A DNA stretch of 64,000 nucleotides from Aquamicrobium defluvii (lineage in GTDB: Bacteria; Pseudomonadota; Alphaproteobacteria; Rhizobiales; Rhizobiaceae): assembly GCF_004363725.1 (NCBI RefSeq), contig NZ_SNZF01000015.1:1-64000 (forward strand), written 5' to 3'. The translations under genes and the position numbers were made by a program. The notes under the pieces were generated by a model. The model ran no database searches. It was given only the letters and a program-made list of their open reading frames with translations, and was not told the origin of the DNA. Shown piece after piece: positions 1,673-46,119 of this stretch. Position 1 is the first letter of the stretch, and every line of letters starts with the position of its first letter.

Positions 1673-2407
1673 ATGGATTGTGGCTCCAAGACTCCGATGA
1701 ACAACCTCGCATCAGACACGAAAAACCGCGGCCCGGAACACCCGCCCGCTTCACGGGGCGAGCTTACCGGCTTCCTCATGAACATGACCGCCAATACCGG
1801 CGCCGACAGCTACATGCTGGTCGCCATCGTGCACGGCGAAGCCCGCAATCAGGCCCGCATCGTTGCTTCCAACTGGCAGTTCGACGCCATAGAGCTGATC
1901 GGGCGCCAGCTCATCGCGACGCTTGCCCAAGGGCCGTGGACCGCTTCACCGGGCACGCTTCCCGCCGCCCTGACGGTCAGCAGCGCACCCGACACCGACG
2001 CGCTCATCAATGGCGAGGAAGCGAGGCTGCTTCACGTGCTCGGCCATGCCGAGGTCTATTCGCTGGCGCTCAATGTGGGCCGCCAGCGCCTGTTCATCCT
2101 TTTTTCTTCCGCGCAGGCAGGAAGCATCGACCTTTCCACGCTGGCCCGTGCCCAGATCGAATGCTGCTATGCGCTGTCGCGCACGCCCCATCTCATCGCC
2201 GGAACCGCCACCGAAGACCCGCTTTCCGACCGCGAGCGCGAATGCCTGTTCTGGGTTTCGGAAGGCAAGACCACCGACGAGGTCGCCGTCATCCTCGGCG
2301 TGTCCTCCAACACGGTGAACAGCTACATCACCCACGCCATTCAGAAGTTCTCGGCCAGCAACAGGGCGATGGCCATCGCAACGGCAATCAGGAGCGGCAT
2401 CATTTGA
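1673..2407 (+). CDS. visN: LuxR-family flagellar master regulator VisN
   Basis: A LuxR-type transcription factor. In rhizobia VisN acts with VisR, probably as a heterodimer, at the top of the flagellar hierarchy and activates rem/ftcR. The N-terminal part resembles an autoinducer-like ligand domain. The last 60 or so residues are the helix-turn-helix, beginning LSDRERECLFWVSEGKTTDE and containing the SSNTVNSYI recognition helix. The start is uncertain. ATG 1673 gives 244 residues, close to known VisN lengths; ATG 1697 would give 236. The stop overlaps the start of visR. Its position at the head of the flagellar cluster, followed by a second LuxR gene, makes the identification firm. Confidence 0.85.
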   Translation: MDCGSKTPMNNLASDTKNRGPEHPPASRGELTGFLMNMTANTGADSYMLVAIVHGEARNQARIVASNWQFDAIELIGRQLIATLAQGPWTASPGTLPAALTVSSAPDTDALINGEEARLLHVLGHAEVYSLALNVGRQRLFILFSSAQAGSIDLSTLARAQIECCYALSRTPHLIAGTATEDPLSDRERECLFWVSEGKTTDEVAVILGVSSNTVNSYITHAIQKFSASNRAMAIATAIRSGII

Positions 2408-3156
2408 CCCGGCCAGCCTTGAAGGATGTGGACCCAGGCCAGCCGCGCGCCACCTTCGGACAGGTCTGGCCGCAGGGTGGCAGCCATGGGCTCACTCTCG
2501 CGGATGCCGTGCGCCGCTGCCGCTGGATGGCGCTCGATATCAACGCGGACGCTTTCGCGCTGCTTCTCGCGCCCCCGGCACAGGAGCGCGCGCGCCTCGT
2601 GCCCTGCCTCGATTCCGACCATCCGGGCATAGGCTTCTCGAAAACAATCGACGCCGATACGGAACATGTGGTGCAGCATGTCCGCTCCTCCACCGAACCG
2701 CTGTGGTGGAGCAAGGCAGGCGACTGCGCTTCGGACACCGCTCCTGGCTCGCTGTCGTGGGTCACGCGGATCTCGCCGCTGGTCGAAGACAAAGCCGGCA
2801 TCGCGTTCCCGGTTCATGCGGAACGCAACCAGTGCGGGCTGATGGTCTTCGCGGGCGACGGGATCAGTCTTTCCCAGGACATGCTCTACGATATCCATGG
2901 GCGCTGTTTTTCGCTGTTCGCCGCCGTATCGCGCATCCGCTCCGACAATCCGGGGCTGAAACGGGCGATGACCCGTCGCGAGCTCGAATGCCTGAAGCTC
3001 ACCGCCAACGGCTATACGAGCGAGGAGATCGCGCGTCTGCTCAGGCTGTCGGTGCACACCACCAACCAGTACCTCACCCAGTCGGCGCAGAAGCTGAATG
3101 CGGTGAGCCGCACGCAAGCCGTGGCCAAGGCGCTTCGCCTCGGCCTCATAGAGTAG
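2404..3156 (+). CDS. visR: LuxR-family flagellar master regulator VisR
   Basis: The partner of VisN, 250 residues, with a C-terminal LuxR helix-turn-helix (MTRRELECLKLTANGYTSEE, then a LSVHTTNQYL recognition helix). No ATG fits. The reading frame most likely starts at TTG 2404, which lies inside the visN stop (ATTTGA overlap) and has AGGAG about nine bases upstream. This implies translational coupling of the two subunits, as expected for a heterodimer. The 3' end overlaps the convergent orf at 3146 by 11 nt. Function is inferred from the rhizobial VisNR system. Confidence 0.83.
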   Translation: MTRPALKDVDPGQPRATFGQVWPQGGSHGLTLADAVRRCRWMALDINADAFALLLAPPAQERARLVPCLDSDHPGIGFSKTIDADTEHVVQHVRSSTEPLWWSKAGDCASDTAPGSLSWVTRISPLVEDKAGIAFPVHAERNQCGLMVFAGDGISLSQDMLYDIHGRCFSLFAAVSRIRSDNPGLKRAMTRRELECLKLTANGYTSEEIARLLRLSVHTTNQYLTQSAQKLNAVSRTQAVAKALRLGLIE

Positions 3157-40952: not shown

Positions 40953-41546
40953 TCAGGCAGCCTGCACCCGTTCGTTCCGCTGCTTGCGGCCGGACGCGGT
41001 TATGATCCCGCATGCACCGTCCAGCGCACCGTTCTTCAGTTCGAGCGCCAGCAGGCGATGGCGCTCATAAGGACCCGGCATGGCAAGCGCGCCGGTGCGC
41101 GCGGACGAAAAGCCGAAGCGGTTGTAGTAGGGCTCGTCACCGACCAGAAGGATCGCGCCATGGCCGAGACGTTGCGCTTGCGCGACTGCATGGCGCATGA
41201 GCGCCGAGCCAATGCCTGCGCTCTTCACCGAAGGCTCCACGGCCAGCGGCCCGAGCAGCAGCGCCGGCTGGCCGCCGGGACCGAGCGTCACGTTCCACAG
41301 GCGCACGGTGCCGAGCAGCATGCCGCCCGCCGAGCGGGCGACCAGCGCCAGCCCTTCCGCCGGAAGGCGGCCGCGACGCAGCTTCTCGGAAGACTTGCGC
41401 TTGCGCCCCGCGCCCATGGCACGGTCGAGCAAAGCCTCCCGCGCCGCCACGTCGGCAGGCAGTTCGGCTTCCACGGTGAATGCAGGCAGGTTCCGGGCGA
41501 AACCGGCGGGATCGAAATCAGGGGTAGCGATGGCAAGGTTGTTCAT
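40953..41546 (-). CDS. GNAT-family N-acetyltransferase
   Basis: A 197-residue acetyl-CoA-dependent acyltransferase. The acetyl-CoA-binding region is clear: LLGPLAVEPSVKSAGIGSAL, then MRHAVAQAQRLGHGAILLVG and EPYYNRFGFSSA, the YhbS-like pattern. The N-terminal 50 residues form a basic segment (DRAMGAGRKRKSSEKLRRGR). The substrate is unknown. It lies downstream of ornithine decarboxylase on the same strand, separated by two strong hairpins. Confidence 0.85.
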   Translation of the reverse strand: MNNLAIATPDFDPAGFARNLPAFTVEAELPADVAAREALLDRAMGAGRKRKSSEKLRRGRLPAEGLALVARSAGGMLLGTVRLWNVTLGPGGQPALLLGPLAVEPSVKSAGIGSALMRHAVAQAQRLGHGAILLVGDEPYYNRFGFSSARTGALAMPGPYERHRLLALELKNGALDGACGIITASGRKQRNERVQAA

Positions 41547-41587: not shown

Positions 41588-41650
41588 CCATACGCCGGTG
41601 AAGCTTCACCGGCGTATGGACGATCTGACGGGTTTATGGCCCGTCAGATC
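41588..41650. repeat. Two adjacent perfect hairpins overlapping the odc stop
   Basis: A 32-base perfect palindrome (41588-41619, arms CCATACGCCGGTGAAG) is followed after two bases by an 11-bp stem GATCTGACGGG / CCCGTCAGATC with a seven-base loop (41622-41650). The second stem contains the odc stop codon. There is no T-tract on either strand. Confidence 0.8.
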
Positions 41651-42777
41651 ACGTAGGATCGGAGAGGCTCGAAGCCGTTGAAGGCGACCGCCGAATAGGT
41701 GGTCGTGTAGGCTCCGGTGCCTTCGATCAGCACCTCGTCGCCGATGGTCAGCGACAGGGGCAGCGGATAGGGCTTCTTCTCGTACATGACATCGGCCGAA
41801 TCGCAGGTCGGACCGGCCAGCACGCAGGGCTCCACCGCATCGCCGTCACGCGGGGTGACGATCGGGTAGCGGATGGCCTCGTCCATGGTCTCGGCCAGGC
41901 CGCCGAACTTGCCGATGTCGAGATAGACCCAGCGCACATTGTCGTTGTCGGCCTTCTTCGAGATCAGCACCACCTCGGACTTGATGACGCCTGCATTGCC
42001 GACCATGCCGCGGCCCGGCTCGATGATGGTTTCCGGCAGGCGGTTGCCGAAATGCTTCGACAGCGCCTCGAAGATCGCCTGCCCATAGGCTTGCGCGGCC
42101 GGCACGTCGCTGAGATAGCGGGTCGGGAAGCCGCCGCCCATGTTGACGAGCTTGAGCACGATGCCTTCGGCCGCAAGCTTGCCGAACACACCGGCGGCAT
42201 CGGCCAGCGCGCGGTCCCAGGCCGTGAGGTCTGTCTGCTGCGAGCCGACGTGGAACGACACGCCATAGGCGTCGAGCCCGAGCGCGGCGGCGCGGCGCAG
42301 CACATCGACGGCCATCGCCGGTGCGCAGCCGAACTTGCGCGACAGCGGCCACTCGGCGCCCTCGCCGTCGGTCAGCACGCGGCAGAACACGCGGGCACCG
42401 GGGGCCGCACGGGCGATCTTCTCTACCTCCTCGACGCAGTCCACCGCGTAGAGGCGGATGCCGAGATCGTGAGCGCGGGCAATGTCGCGCTCCTTCTTGA
42501 TGGTGTTGCCGAAGCTGATGCGGTCGGGCGTGGCGCCTGCGTCCAGCGCCATCTCGATCTCGGCGACCGAGGCGGTATCGAAGGACGAGCCCATGCCGGC
42601 CAGCAGGCGCAGGATCTCCGGCGCCGGGTTGGCCTTCACCGCATAGAAGATGCGCGCGTCGGGAAGCGCCTTCTCGAAGGCGCGATAATTCTCCTGCACG
42701 ACATCGAGATCTACCACGAGGCACGGTCCGCTCGGACGGCGGGTGGCGAGGAAATCGAGGATACGCTGGGTGGCCAT
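41644..42777 (-). CDS. odc: Ornithine/lysine decarboxylase, PLP fold type III
   Basis: Makes putrescine from ornithine and is possibly also active on lysine; 377 residues, the eukaryotic-like alanine-racemase fold. The PLP lysine is K48 in FYAVKANP. Other conserved parts are SFHVGSQQTD, the phosphate-binding VNMGGGFPTRY, EPGRGMVG, and GPTCDSADV with the active-site Cys and substrate Asp. The ATG at 42777 follows a GGAGAAAA-like site. The same frame stays open far upstream through the leader, but that part lacks family similarity. Putrescine would feed homospermidine synthase at 60.3 kb. Confidence 0.94.
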   Translation of the reverse strand: MATQRILDFLATRRPSGPCLVVDLDVVQENYRAFEKALPDARIFYAVKANPAPEILRLLAGMGSSFDTASVAEIEMALDAGATPDRISFGNTIKKERDIARAHDLGIRLYAVDCVEEVEKIARAAPGARVFCRVLTDGEGAEWPLSRKFGCAPAMAVDVLRRAAALGLDAYGVSFHVGSQQTDLTAWDRALADAAGVFGKLAAEGIVLKLVNMGGGFPTRYLSDVPAAQAYGQAIFEALSKHFGNRLPETIIEPGRGMVGNAGVIKSEVVLISKKADNDNVRWVYLDIGKFGGLAETMDEAIRYPIVTPRDGDAVEPCVLAGPTCDSADVMYEKKPYPLPLSLTIGDEVLIEGTGAYTTTYSAVAFNGFEPLRSYVI

Positions 42778-43215
42778 CGGCTTTTCTCCATCGCGCCACA
42801 AGGCGCGCACAAAGGCTGCGTCGAGCGGGCGCGCGGCCTCGCATGAACGCGGTGGACAAAGCGGGAAGGGAATCGCAGGGAGCCGGCCGGTGGAGACACC
42901 GGAACCCCGAAACGCCTTTCCGCGGCGGTGAGCTGAAGCCTTGCCCGGCTCCGGCTCGCTTTGTCTGCCTTGGCTTGGATGGGAAATCCCAACCGCACTG
43001 CCGGCAATGAAGGTGTGCCTCTTCAGTAACCCCGATCTATGGACGATCGGCAGACACCAGAAAGGCCCGCACCGTCGTTGCTTCAAGGCGTCCTCGATCA
43101 TGCGGTTGGCCACTTGATCGACCGGGCTCGTTATTTCCCGGGTACCGTCCCGACTGTCCTCGCCATTCGAGGAGCCGGGGGACGCCCACAGGCACGTGCG
43201 ACTTTGGGCAAGCGC
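42778..43215 (-). ncRNA. Long odc leader, candidate speF RNA element
   Basis: From the promoter at 43216-43244 the transcript would run about 430 nt before the odc ATG. A conserved structured leader (speF motif) is known upstream of alphaproteobacterial ornithine decarboxylase genes and has about this size. Local hairpins are visible, for example CCTCG / CGAGG near 43160 on the minus strand. A short ORF, MARTVGTVPGK, lies there too. The identity as speF is inferred from position and length only. Confidence 0.5.
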
Positions 43216-43244
43216 GATATAGGAACAGTGCCTGTCACAATCAA
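43216..43244 (-). promoter_or_regulatory. Promoter of odc
   Basis: On the minus strand TTGATT (43244-43239) and TATATC (43221-43216) are separated by exactly 17 bases, a good housekeeping promoter. The predicted start is near 43209. Confidence 0.6.
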
Positions 43245-43354
43245 CCGAATTCTTTGCCCGCCTTGAAAAATCACCGGCATCGAACAATCCTGCCATCATC
43301 GTTTCACGTTTGGAGACGATGGCTGTCCGGGTTCCCCGGTGGAAGGAAGACCAG

Positions 43355-44254
43355 ATGGACACGCTTACGCGCATGCGCGCATTCATAGATGTGGTGGAAG
43401 CCGAGGGTTTTTCGGCAGCCGCCCGCAAGATAGGGCGCTCCAAGGCGTTGCTTTCCAAATATGTGCGCGAGCTGGAGGACGAGCTGGGCGCGCTTCTGCT
43501 CAACCGCACCACACGTCAGTTCTCCCTCACCGAGGCGGGCCACACCTATTACAGGCGCGCCTCCGAGATCGTGCGCGAGATCGACAGCCTTGCTGATTCG
43601 GTTCGCGAAACATCTGGTGACGTGCGCGGCCGCATCAAGCTGTCCGCCCCGCGAACCTTCGCCGACGCCCCCATAGGTCAGTCGCTGATCGACTTCGCCA
43701 GGGAATATCCCGACATCGTGCTGGAGATCAGGCTCGACGACCGCTTCGTCGATCTGGTCGAGGAGGGTTTCGACCTCGCCATCCGCATCTCGCGGCTGGA
43801 AAGCTCGTCGCTCATCGCCCGCAAGCTTGCGCCGTTCCGGGTGATGATCTGCGCATCGCCGGAACTGCTGGCCACACACCCAACCCCGCGGCAACCGCAG
43901 GACCTCGGCGGCATGCCCTGCATCATCGATACCAACGGGCGATGGCTGTCCAACTGGCCATTCAAGGGCGATGGCGGCGACACCATCAGCGTGGCCGTGT
44001 CGGGGCCCATTGAGGTAAACAGCCCCATAGCCGCCCGCGCCGCAGCCGTCTCCGGCCTCGGCTTCGCCGGCCTGCCGGATTTCATCGCCGCTCCGGAGAT
44101 CGCAGCCGGCCGGCTTGTGCCGGTGCTGGAGGACAGGGTTCTGGAAGGCGGCGGCATCTTCGCGGTCTATCCGCACCGCCGCTACCTGCCTGCCAAGGTT
44201 CGGGTTTTTGTCGACTATCTCGCCAACTGGTTCAGAACACGCGAAGCACCATGA
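43355..44254 (+). CDS. LysR-family transcriptional regulator
   Basis: A 299-residue LysR regulator. The N-terminal helix-turn-helix reads MDTLTRMRAFIDVVEAEGFS, then AARKIGRSKALLSKYVRELE. It is followed by the standard substrate-binding domain from about 90 (GRIKLSAPRTFADAPIGQSL). The start at 43355 has GGAAGGAAG upstream; an ATG at 43310 is less likely. It belongs to the CrgA-like branch by overall look. It is divergent from odc but 580 nt away, so its target is unclear. Confidence 0.9.
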   Translation: MDTLTRMRAFIDVVEAEGFSAAARKIGRSKALLSKYVRELEDELGALLLNRTTRQFSLTEAGHTYYRRASEIVREIDSLADSVRETSGDVRGRIKLSAPRTFADAPIGQSLIDFAREYPDIVLEIRLDDRFVDLVEEGFDLAIRISRLESSSLIARKLAPFRVMICASPELLATHPTPRQPQDLGGMPCIIDTNGRWLSNWPFKGDGGDTISVAVSGPIEVNSPIAARAAAVSGLGFAGLPDFIAAPEIAAGRLVPVLEDRVLEGGGIFAVYPHRRYLPAKVRVFVDYLANWFRTREAP

Positions 44255-44278
44255 CGGTTCTGTCATGGTTTCATGCCA

Positions 44279-44308
44279 TTGTCCCATTTTCGCCCGCTTT
44301 GTGATAAT
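44279..44308 (+). promoter_or_regulatory. Promoter of the nickel/cobalt gene pair
   Basis: TTGTCC (44279-44284) and GATAAT (44303-44308) at 18-base spacing lie about 40 nt before the DUF1007 gene. No RcnR- or NikR-like operator was recognised. Confidence 0.5.
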
Positions 44309-44346
44309 CCTCGGGCTCGCAGCAAGTCAGGGATACGAACCTTCAA

Positions 44347-45009
44347 ATGCCCTTTGAACGCACAGTGCCGAAGGTGGGGGCCGCACTGGCCGCCTTGCTC
44401 GCATGCACCGTTCCCGCAAGCGTGCATCCGCATGTCTTTGCGGAAGCCCGGCTCGACGTGGTGCTCGGCGCCGACCATCAGACCGTGAAGGCACTGCGCC
44501 ACCTGTGGCGTTTCGACGACCTGTTCTCCTCGACCGTGCTGATGGAATTCGACGCCAACGCCGACCTCAGGCTCGACGACGACGAGTTGCAGGAGGTGGC
44601 CAACACCATCCACGCCTCGCTGGCCGACTTCAACTATTTCCAGCTCGTCACGGTGGACGGCAAGGACGTGAAGATGAAGCCGCCCGCCGCGATCATGGCC
44701 AACTTCGAGAACAACCAGCTCATCATCCTGTTCGAATCCGAACCCGAGACCCCGATCCAGCTTGCCGGGGACATCCGTCTCGGCGTTTACGACCCTACTT
44801 TCTACACAGCCATCGACTTTACCGAAGACGCCAACATGGCGGTGGACGGCCTGCCCTCCATCTGCACGCGGACGGTGGTTCGCCCCGACCCCGACACCGC
44901 TCTGGCCGAGAACCAGCAGACGCTGACCGAGGCATTCTTCAACGACCCGGCAGGCACCGACATGAGCAAGATCTTCGCGACCAAGCTCGAAATCAAATGC
45001 CATGCGTGA
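44347..45009 (+). CDS. DUF1007 family periplasmic protein
   Basis: A 220-residue secreted protein with an N-terminal signal peptide (GAALAALLACTVPASVHPHV). The DUF1007 core includes HPHVFAEARLDVVLGADHQT, LRHLWRFDDLFSSTVLMEFD, and an acidic ANADLRLDDDEL segment. These proteins sit beside NicO/RcnA transporters and are thought to help metal handling in the periplasm. The gene is 9 nt upstream of the exporter, consistent with that. Confidence 0.88.
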   Translation: MPFERTVPKVGAALAALLACTVPASVHPHVFAEARLDVVLGADHQTVKALRHLWRFDDLFSSTVLMEFDANADLRLDDDELQEVANTIHASLADFNYFQLVTVDGKDVKMKPPAAIMANFENNQLIILFESEPETPIQLAGDIRLGVYDPTFYTAIDFTEDANMAVDGLPSICTRTVVRPDPDTALAENQQTLTEAFFNDPAGTDMSKIFATKLEIKCHA

Positions 45010-45018
45010 GGACTGCCC

Positions 45019-46119
45019 TTGAACAAGATCTTCATACGCGTGACCTTCGCCCTGCTGGCCGTCGCTTACGTGCTGTCGCATTTCGCCGGTCATGCCCATG
45101 CCCAAAGCTCGCTCGGCATCGGCGCCAACGAAGCCGTGATCCCCTCCACCGGCATGTTCTCCGGCCTGATGATGTGGATCAACCAGCACCAGCAGGCATT
45201 CTACCGCTCCCTGTCTTCGGCCATGAAGGCCATGCGCGACGACAGCGGGCAGGTGTGGATGCTGGCCGGCCTGTCCTTCGCCTACGGCGTGTTCCATGCG
45301 GCCGGACCCGGACACGGCAAGGCCGTCATCTCCTCCTATATGCTGGCCAACGAGGTGGCGCTGCGCCGCGGCGTCGTCCTGTCCTTCATCTCCGCCTTTC
45401 TTCAGGCGGCCACTGCCATCGCAGTCATGCTGCTCGCCTATTTCGTGCTGCGCGGCACGTCCGTGTCCATGACCAATGCCGCGCACTTCCTCGAAATCGC
45501 GAGCTACGTCTTCGTCACCGGATTCGGCGCATGGCTCCTGTGGAAGAAGGCCGGTCCCGTGGTGAGGCGCATGATCGGCGCCGCCCCCGCCTACAGCCTT
45601 TCCGCCGCAAGCGCCCCGCATGCGCATCACGATCACGACACCGGACATCATCATCTTGACGGCCAGTGCTGCCACGGCCACCACGATCATGACGATGCGC
45701 ATCGTCATGACGATCATGCACATCATCACGAGGAAGGAATGGTGTGCTCAAGCTGCGGCCATTCCCATGCCGTCGACCCCAGCCTTCTCGCATCCGAGCG
45801 GTTCGACTGGCGCACCGCATGGTCGGCCATGGCCGCCGTCGGCCTCAGGCCATGCTCGGGGGCGCTGATCGTCCTGTCCTTCGCCCTGCTGAACGGCTTG
45901 TGGATGGCGGGAATCCTGTCGGTTCTGGCAATGGCGCTGGGCACCGCCATCACCGTCTCGACGCTGGCGGTTCTGGCGGTTACGGCCAAGAACTGGGCCG
46001 TGCTTCTGGCCGGCGGCGGCAGGCTGGGCAACCGCATTCACACCGCCATCGAGATCGGCGCGGCCGCCTTCATATTCCTTGTCGGCCTGACGCTGCTTTC
46101 GGCAAGCCTGAGCGTCTGA
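45019..46119 (+). CDS. NicO/RcnA-type nickel-cobalt transporter
   Basis: A 366-residue inner-membrane protein with about six membrane segments. The NicO signature [20 protein letters not shown] lies at about 93-112. The segment with [20 protein letters not shown] lies around residue 275. Between them is a very His/Asp-rich cytoplasmic loop at about 195-245 ([20 protein letters not shown], then a CSSCGHSH motif) that should bind metal. Direction is probably export, by analogy with RcnA. It forms a pair with the DUF1007 gene. Confidence 0.9.

Follow-up and report, generated by a model that had tools for sequence, protein, structure and literature searches.

A structured leader of the ornithine decarboxylase gene in Alphaproteobacteria, in which the ar45 and speF RNAs probably form one cis-acting element

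The odc gene of Aquamicrobium defluvii, which encodes ornithine decarboxylase, is preceded by a long RNA leader. The 3' half of the leader belongs to speF, a riboswitch candidate that has remained an orphan since 2005; the 5' half belongs to ar45, a small RNA without an assigned function. The question raised by this locus is whether the two halves are neighbouring elements or parts of a single one. If they form one element, the two puzzles merge into a single question that can be tested on the whole RNA with its pseudoknot intact, rather than on either half. The locus was analysed in a window of 64,000 nt (the whole stretch of DNA under study), together with related loci. The reading preferred here is one cis-acting odc leader made of ar45 and speF. 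An early stop of transcription would release ar45; read-through would close a pseudoknot between the two halves and make the odc mRNA. The probability of this reading is estimated at about 0.66.

Parts of the odc leader

The features of the locus are summarized in Table 1. The initial annotation had placed a promoter and a transcript start about 430 nt ahead of odc, and both agree with the present analysis: the promoter is found in the window, and the leader is 432 nt long (43209..42778) with the transcription start put at 43209 on the basis of homology with the S. meliloti start. Among 182 unique upstream stretches, the −35 element has T in 98%, and a looser TAT(A/T)T-like block lies at −13..−9 relative to the GCCC start, with the commonest letters reaching 48-59% per column. 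A generic sigma-70 scan, whose rules are stricter, reported no promoter at the odc leader. The leaders of 28 family loci and two plasmid-collection records were 397 to 457 nt long by the chosen start.

A structured speF leader had also been proposed for this region, and this part of the annotation is borne out. The leader folds better than its dinucleotide shuffles (z −3.92; 0/100 shuffles as good), and it matches RF00518 well above the gathering cut-off. The speF match precedes odc in relatives too. What the annotation had missed is that the 5' half of the leader is a separate Rfam family, ar45 (RF02347), which also exceeds its cut-off. The two matches lie 8 nt apart on the same (minus) strand in the window, with speF directly ahead of odc. 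Matches of the leader to other Rfam families were weak, and all of them fell far under their cut-offs.

Table 1. Features of the odc leader in the window (positions of the window; bit scores from cmscan).
Feature	Position	Strand	Evidence or remark
Promoter TTGATT-17-TATATC	43216..43244	-	TTGATT 43244..43239, TATATC 43221..43216; conserved in relatives
ar45 domain (RF02347), 5' half of leader	43061..43209	-	144.3 bits (gathering cut-off 40)
Conserved 5' segment GCCCAAAGUCGCACGUGCCUGUGG	43186..43209	-	alignment of leaders
GCCC, 5' strand of P1	43209..43206	-	start of GCCCAAAGUCGCACGUGCCUGUGG
GCAACGAC, ar45 3' side	43074..43081	-	invariant across 71 leaders
GGUG, pseudoknot strand 1	43070..43073	-	covariation
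GGGC, 3' strand of P1, directly 5' of U-rich stretch	43065..43068	-	re-paired sequences in relatives
U-rich stretch CUUUCUGG, weak in window; UUUUUUGG in most relatives	43057..43064	-	
speF leader (RF00518)	42907..43052	-	92.2 bits (gathering cut-off 37)
hp1, CCGAUC-GUCCAUA-GAUCGG, 7-nt loop with UCCA	43032..43050	-	two-sided changes in 6/6 pairs
speF hairpin GAGGC...UUGCC	43003..43021	-	leader alignment
CACC in speF hairpin loop, pseudoknot strand 2	43012..43015	-	covariation
hp2, GGUUGGGAUUUCCCAUCC hairpin	42977..42994	-	two-sided changes in 4/6 pairs
hp3 position, CCGGUGUCUCCACCGG	42887..42902	-	window departs from the 7-nt-loop form of relatives
odc, ornithine decarboxylase	41644..42777	-	ORF; ATG 42777; orthologue is odc2 in S. 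meliloti Ak57

From the ORFs, the neighbours of odc on the plus strand (43310-46119) are a divergently oriented LysR-type regulator, followed by a DUF1007 protein and by a putative metal exporter that has a loop rich in His; the gene downstream of odc (40953-41546, minus strand) encodes an N-acetyltransferase. The annotated order in S. meliloti Ak57 is similar, including the DUF1007 protein, the LysR regulator, odc2 and the N-acetyltransferase.

Occurrence of the leader and pairing between ar45 and speF

Matches to ar45 were found in 12/289 genomes of the class, 74/199 of the order and 172/199 of the family. Twelve of the same 289 class genomes also matched speF, and 11 genomes were shared with ar45 (E 0.001). 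The only class genome with ar45 alone (G260) had a match of 29.5 bits, which is below the cut-off, and contained no odc in its 3.1-kb locus; the only one with speF alone (G283) has the ar45 core in its sequence. A joined core model (R1) matched 18/385 class genomes (two with weak scores of 24-25 bits) and 30/249 phylum genomes. All these 30 genomes are of the same class or closer, which is a weak sign that R1 is absent outside the class, the number of the 249 lying outside it not being given. The carriers among the matches listed in a pattern scan include Bradyrhizobium, Methylobacterium, Microvirga, Azorhizobium, Stappia, Thalassospira and Pelagibius. No Agrobacterium leader was found; protelomerase, taken as a marker of that genus, was present in 0/50 chosen genomes.

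The position of the leader before odc is constant. From 215 loci, 12 without a parsed core were removed to give 203, and L142 was lost at the next parse (202); on inspection it does carry the leader and odc. The odc gene lies downstream on the same strand in 198/203 loci, of which a script identified 196 and inspection added L204 and L142; the remaining five pieces end 62-250 bases past the match. Some of the 203 loci are repeats, and the distinct leaders that extend to odc number 177. An odc-like start also follows the divergent leaders L261, L262 and L263. As side observations, L262 and L263 (about 1300-1800), from a distant family, have the ar45 core and the U-rich stretch before odc, and a speF hairpin of the usual form was not recognised in them by eye; such loci could reveal the essential half. 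The locus L204 holds the leader and odc at 2100-2620 (minus strand) and another odc match in the same 8 kb, and may therefore have two odc genes.

For the pairing counts, 156 unique leaders were obtained, and 155 remained after removal of L198, which had no register; 146 of them had enough Odc sequence for the tree. A separate count used 71 leaders, one per sequence type out of the 155. Some family, S. meliloti and R1-found loci were left out of the pseudoknot counts and contributed to leader length, odc linkage, transcript ends and P1 alone. The counts of pair 1 and of the U-run are biased in 119 loci picked by a pattern, because the U-run and the first G of the pseudoknot are set by this pattern; pairs 2-4 are unbiased by it.

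The GGUG strand at the base of the ar45 stem pairs with CACC in the loop of the speF hairpin in the window. Among relatives, the strand after GCAACGAC varies by lineage (GGUG, GUAG, GUAA, GGAU, GGAG, GAAC and others), and the speF loop varies in step with it (CACC, CUAC, UUAC, GUCC, GUUU). The register of the pseudoknot was fixed by the 3' end of the loop, and not by complementarity. Pairs 1-4 were standard (GU counted) in 154, 153, 148 and 116 of the 155 unique leaders; the means after shuffling of the partners were 154.0, 71.7, 101.2 and 70.6. These means indicate that pair 1 gives no evidence and that pairs 2 and 3 give the most, and pair 4 fails in 39/155 leaders. Pair 2 was Watson-Crick in 153/155 (GC 74, UA 57, AU 22; shuffles mean 60.6, max 79) and pair 3 in 148/155 (AU 118, UA 30; shuffles mean 101.2, max 114). 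On the Odc tree with 146 tips, pair 2 showed 14 changes, 12 of them double, and pair 3 showed 9 changes (4 double, 5 one-sided). The same two pairs rank 1 and 2 among 5,090 column pairs.

In the 71 leaders, 19 pairs of the pseudoknot, hp1, the speF hairpin and hp2 had a covariation of 0.326, compared with 0.145 for shuffled and at most 0.123 for slid pairs; the four pseudoknot pairs were 89.3% standard in this count, which uses a different alignment. The three GC pairs of the speF hairpin hardly ever vary and therefore provide no covariation evidence. Among 76 leaders found from the Rfam models alone, pairs 2 and 3 were Watson-Crick in 74/76 and 71/76. The ar45-speF leader is a conserved structured RNA with covariation, as is usual for riboswitches. 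As a unit of evolution, ar45 is not independent of the downstream leader, since it covaries with the speF loop. This pairing across the boundary of the two families indicates that ar45 and speF are one element.

A second long-range pairing between CGCACG in ar45 and CGUGCG in speF is not claimed here, and it falls outside the top 45 column pairs. Both strands are almost invariant; by eye, L082 and L088 compensate, and L010 and L011 break the pairing.

Release of a short RNA and rival explanations

The helix P1 is GCCC/GGGC in most leaders. It is re-paired as ACCC/GGGU in L074 and L078, as CCGUC/GACGG in L261 and as GACGC/GCGUC in L263, and is swapped to another paired sequence in L262; a U-rich stretch still comes after each re-paired P1. 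In L087, P1 is imperfect. Six U follow P1 in 59/76 Rfam-found leaders, a search made without use of that sequence. The U-run of the window is CUUUCU only, and in 3/155 leaders, which keep the fold, it is broken as UUCCUU. Together, P1 and the U-run resemble an atypical stop signal of a stem and a U-run, located where the ar45 domain ends. Beside the U-run, P1 of the window has only 4 bp and an internal loop, unlike a standard terminator, and a generic terminator scan found nothing on the minus strand at the window leader. A nearly invariant GGUCUC also follows the U-run in 62/76 Rfam-found leaders, which exceeds the needs of a terminator.

A transcript of S. meliloti corresponds to the ar45 domain. 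The deep-sequencing RNA SmelC706 spans 3105298-3105445 on the minus strand (148 nt; PMC2873474), and its intergenic region spans 3105052-3105637 (PMC2573895); these coordinates place its 5' end 394 nt from the odc2 side. In L244, from the different strain S. meliloti Ak57, the distance from the first G of GCCC to the annotated start of odc2 is 394 nt, and nt 148 counted from that G is the last U of GGGCCUUU. The length of SmelC706 and its distance to odc2, as given in these sources, match the same stretch in L244, and its ends agree with ar45. By homology, the U-rich stretch would be the end of a short RNA in the window. For the same S. meliloti RNA, an older study inferred a length of 181 nt from an end placed at a U-run, which disagrees with 148 nt (PMC2780559). 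In Methylosinus sporium, ar45 has been termed an intergenic unit (PMC12403871).

The fold, the pseudoknot, P1 and the fixed place of the leader ahead of odc are shown above; the single leader could work as follows. Transcription would start from 43209, and the ar45 domain would fold first. P1 stands directly before the U-rich stretch, where the polymerase may stop and release an "ar45" of about 148 nt. On read-through, the speF hairpin would form, and its CACC loop would pair back to GGUG to give a pseudoknot that spans the stop site; hp1, hp2 and the pre-odc hairpin would complete the fold, which may also act on the translation of odc. A single promoter would then have two products, and the choice between them might be regulated by a signal related to polyamines or ornithine. 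The pseudoknot cannot itself decide termination, because it forms only after the stop site has been passed; for the same reason, its most likely role is in the read-through RNA, for stability or translation, or in a sensor acting at a second step. The short RNA could also arise by cleavage rather than termination, and the released ar45 could have a second role in trans. A broader proposal, which is tentative, is that the leader represents a single riboswitch class of Alphaproteobacteria. The helix closing the sensor would be the terminator stem, and read-through would lock the pseudoknot, with two checkpoints (transcription and translation) on putrescine synthesis; the ligand might be a compound of the polyamine pathway beyond the published negatives, for example homospermidine. 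The model specifies base swaps that are able to prove or break it.

Several other explanations were considered. The two halves might be separate elements; ar45 would be a trans-acting sRNA that has a promoter and a terminator of its own, and speF a distinct odc leader that follows by chance. The separate entries in Rfam would agree with this, as would a report (PMC7717549) in which ar45 of Bartonella bacilliformis was expressed separately from speF, a speF probe detecting a transcript of >700 bases, and ar45 of S. meliloti co-precipitated with Hfq. However, the ar45 bases covary with the speF loop bases, and ar45 adjoins speF before odc in all the parsed loci that reach far enough; two separate elements are thus improbable. 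It is also doubtful that the U-rich stretch serves the pseudoknot as a structural linker, with the short RNA as a processing product and control by translation only. The weak U-run of the window and the extension of the conserved block past the U-run as GGUCUC are in line with a linker; whereas SmelC706 ends exactly at the U-run by its published coordinates, and the U-rich stretch is retained where the P1 sequence has changed. The third possibility is a leader operated by a protein, and it concerns the hairpins hp1 and hp3, which share the 7-nt loop NUCCANN in relatives (commonest CUCCAAA, CUCCAUC and CUCCACA) and would be two sites for one regulator of read-through or translation. The strict hp3 (7-nt loop, at least 4 bp) was found in 146/177 leaders compared with 6.0 expected with shuffled flanks, and lies 61-90 nt before odc in 100/146 cases; the strict hp1 (7-nt loop, at least 3 bp) was found in 105/177. 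Moreover, the UCCA of hp1, which directly follows the U-run, is nearly invariant while the stem changes. Such a protein-operated leader is nevertheless unlikely: no protein is known for it, the loop could dock in RNA instead, and the strict hp1 is missing in 72/177 leaders and the strict hp3 in 31/177, including the window and several family relatives. Pairing of the hp1/hp3 loop with the Shine-Dalgarno sequence was also considered and is unsupported, the first loop base not tracking the matching base. Bacterial tRNA-Trp has CUCCAAA as its anticodon loop; because the position after CCA varies freely, mimicry of a tRNA is no more than speculation.

The initial annotation had raised the possibility of a polyamine- or ornithine-sensing attenuation that involves a peptide. 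In a leader-peptide attenuator, ribosomes on a short frame would sense ornithine or polyamines in the manner of SpeFL in enterobacteria. The odc frame is indeed open through the leader (ORF 41644..43512, minus strand), and the stretch MIEDALKQRRCGPFWCLPIV is present, with its ATG at 43101 instead of the annotated 43103. A short core of the MIEDALKQRRCGPFWCLPIV frame is free of stops in 127/155 leaders, compared with 4 and 75 for the other two frames. We take this open core, the sole count leaning toward a peptide, as what invariant stop-free RNA letters would give. The distance from GCAACGAC to the 3' strand of P1 is 4, 5, 6 and 7 nt in 26, 116, 12 and 1 of the 155 leaders, and the frame is shifted in the middle of the peptide because the length varies between these two blocks. 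An upstream in-frame ATG is found in 6/155, and 60/155 have no ATG, GTG or TTG. Even within the same genus, L027, L028 and L030 are without the ATG, and L029, L031, L032, L033 and L034 have stops in the MIEDALKQRRCGPFWCLPIV frame. The letters that vary follow the base-pairing with the speF loop. MIEDALKQRRCGPFWCLPIV was therefore rejected as a peptide on the frame-shifting lengths, the stops and the missing starts, and a peptide attenuator is very improbable. The second annotated frame, MARTVGTVPGK, is present and starts at 43166; its significance was not confirmed, and by eye, in the leaders inspected, it falls in the variable ar45 insertion. Across relatives, the structure of the leader is conserved and the peptide is not, and attenuation without a peptide is likely.

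Comparison with known systems

Part of this leader had been described before. Corbino et al. 2005 (PMC1273637) described an 'extended' speF whose beginning was close to a putative start of transcription; its stem carried a large insertion, and a conserved block came next. The available text on speF, figures aside, mentions no pseudoknot. The same source reports no binding of ornithine, lysine, diaminopimelate, putrescine, cadaverine or spermidine. The construct used for binding in 2005 (−400 to +3) might have been too short to include the 5' strand of P1; with leader lengths of 397 to 457 nt and no Agrobacterium leader to compare, no conclusion here draws on this idea. In a review (PMC7266159), Greenlee et al. 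2018 is credited with further conserved sequence and structure in speF, and this revision may already show the ar45-speF pseudoknot. The available parts of the literature compared here, Greenlee et al. 2018 itself excepted, contain nothing joining ar45 and speF by a pseudoknot. The novelty of this link is therefore limited to its absence from that literature and to the separation of ar45 and speF in Rfam 15.

The leader resembles speF (RF00518) in its match above the gathering score and in its position upstream of an odc orthologue; whereas the Rfam model spans the 3' half only and has no link to ar45. The SpeFL/speF system of enterobacteria, in which ribosomes on a leader peptide sense ornithine or polyamines, is similar in that a leader controls ornithine decarboxylase, but the present leader differs in having no conserved peptide or conserved short reading frame. 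The ar45 RNA (RF02347, also SmrC45 or SmelC706) likewise matches above the gathering score, and the ends in S. meliloti agree. It is catalogued as an independent sRNA, whereas here it is the 5' domain of an odc leader and is paired to speF. If the two are one element, this is a caution that an 'sRNA' entry based on RNA-seq may represent a prematurely ended leader of the gene that follows.
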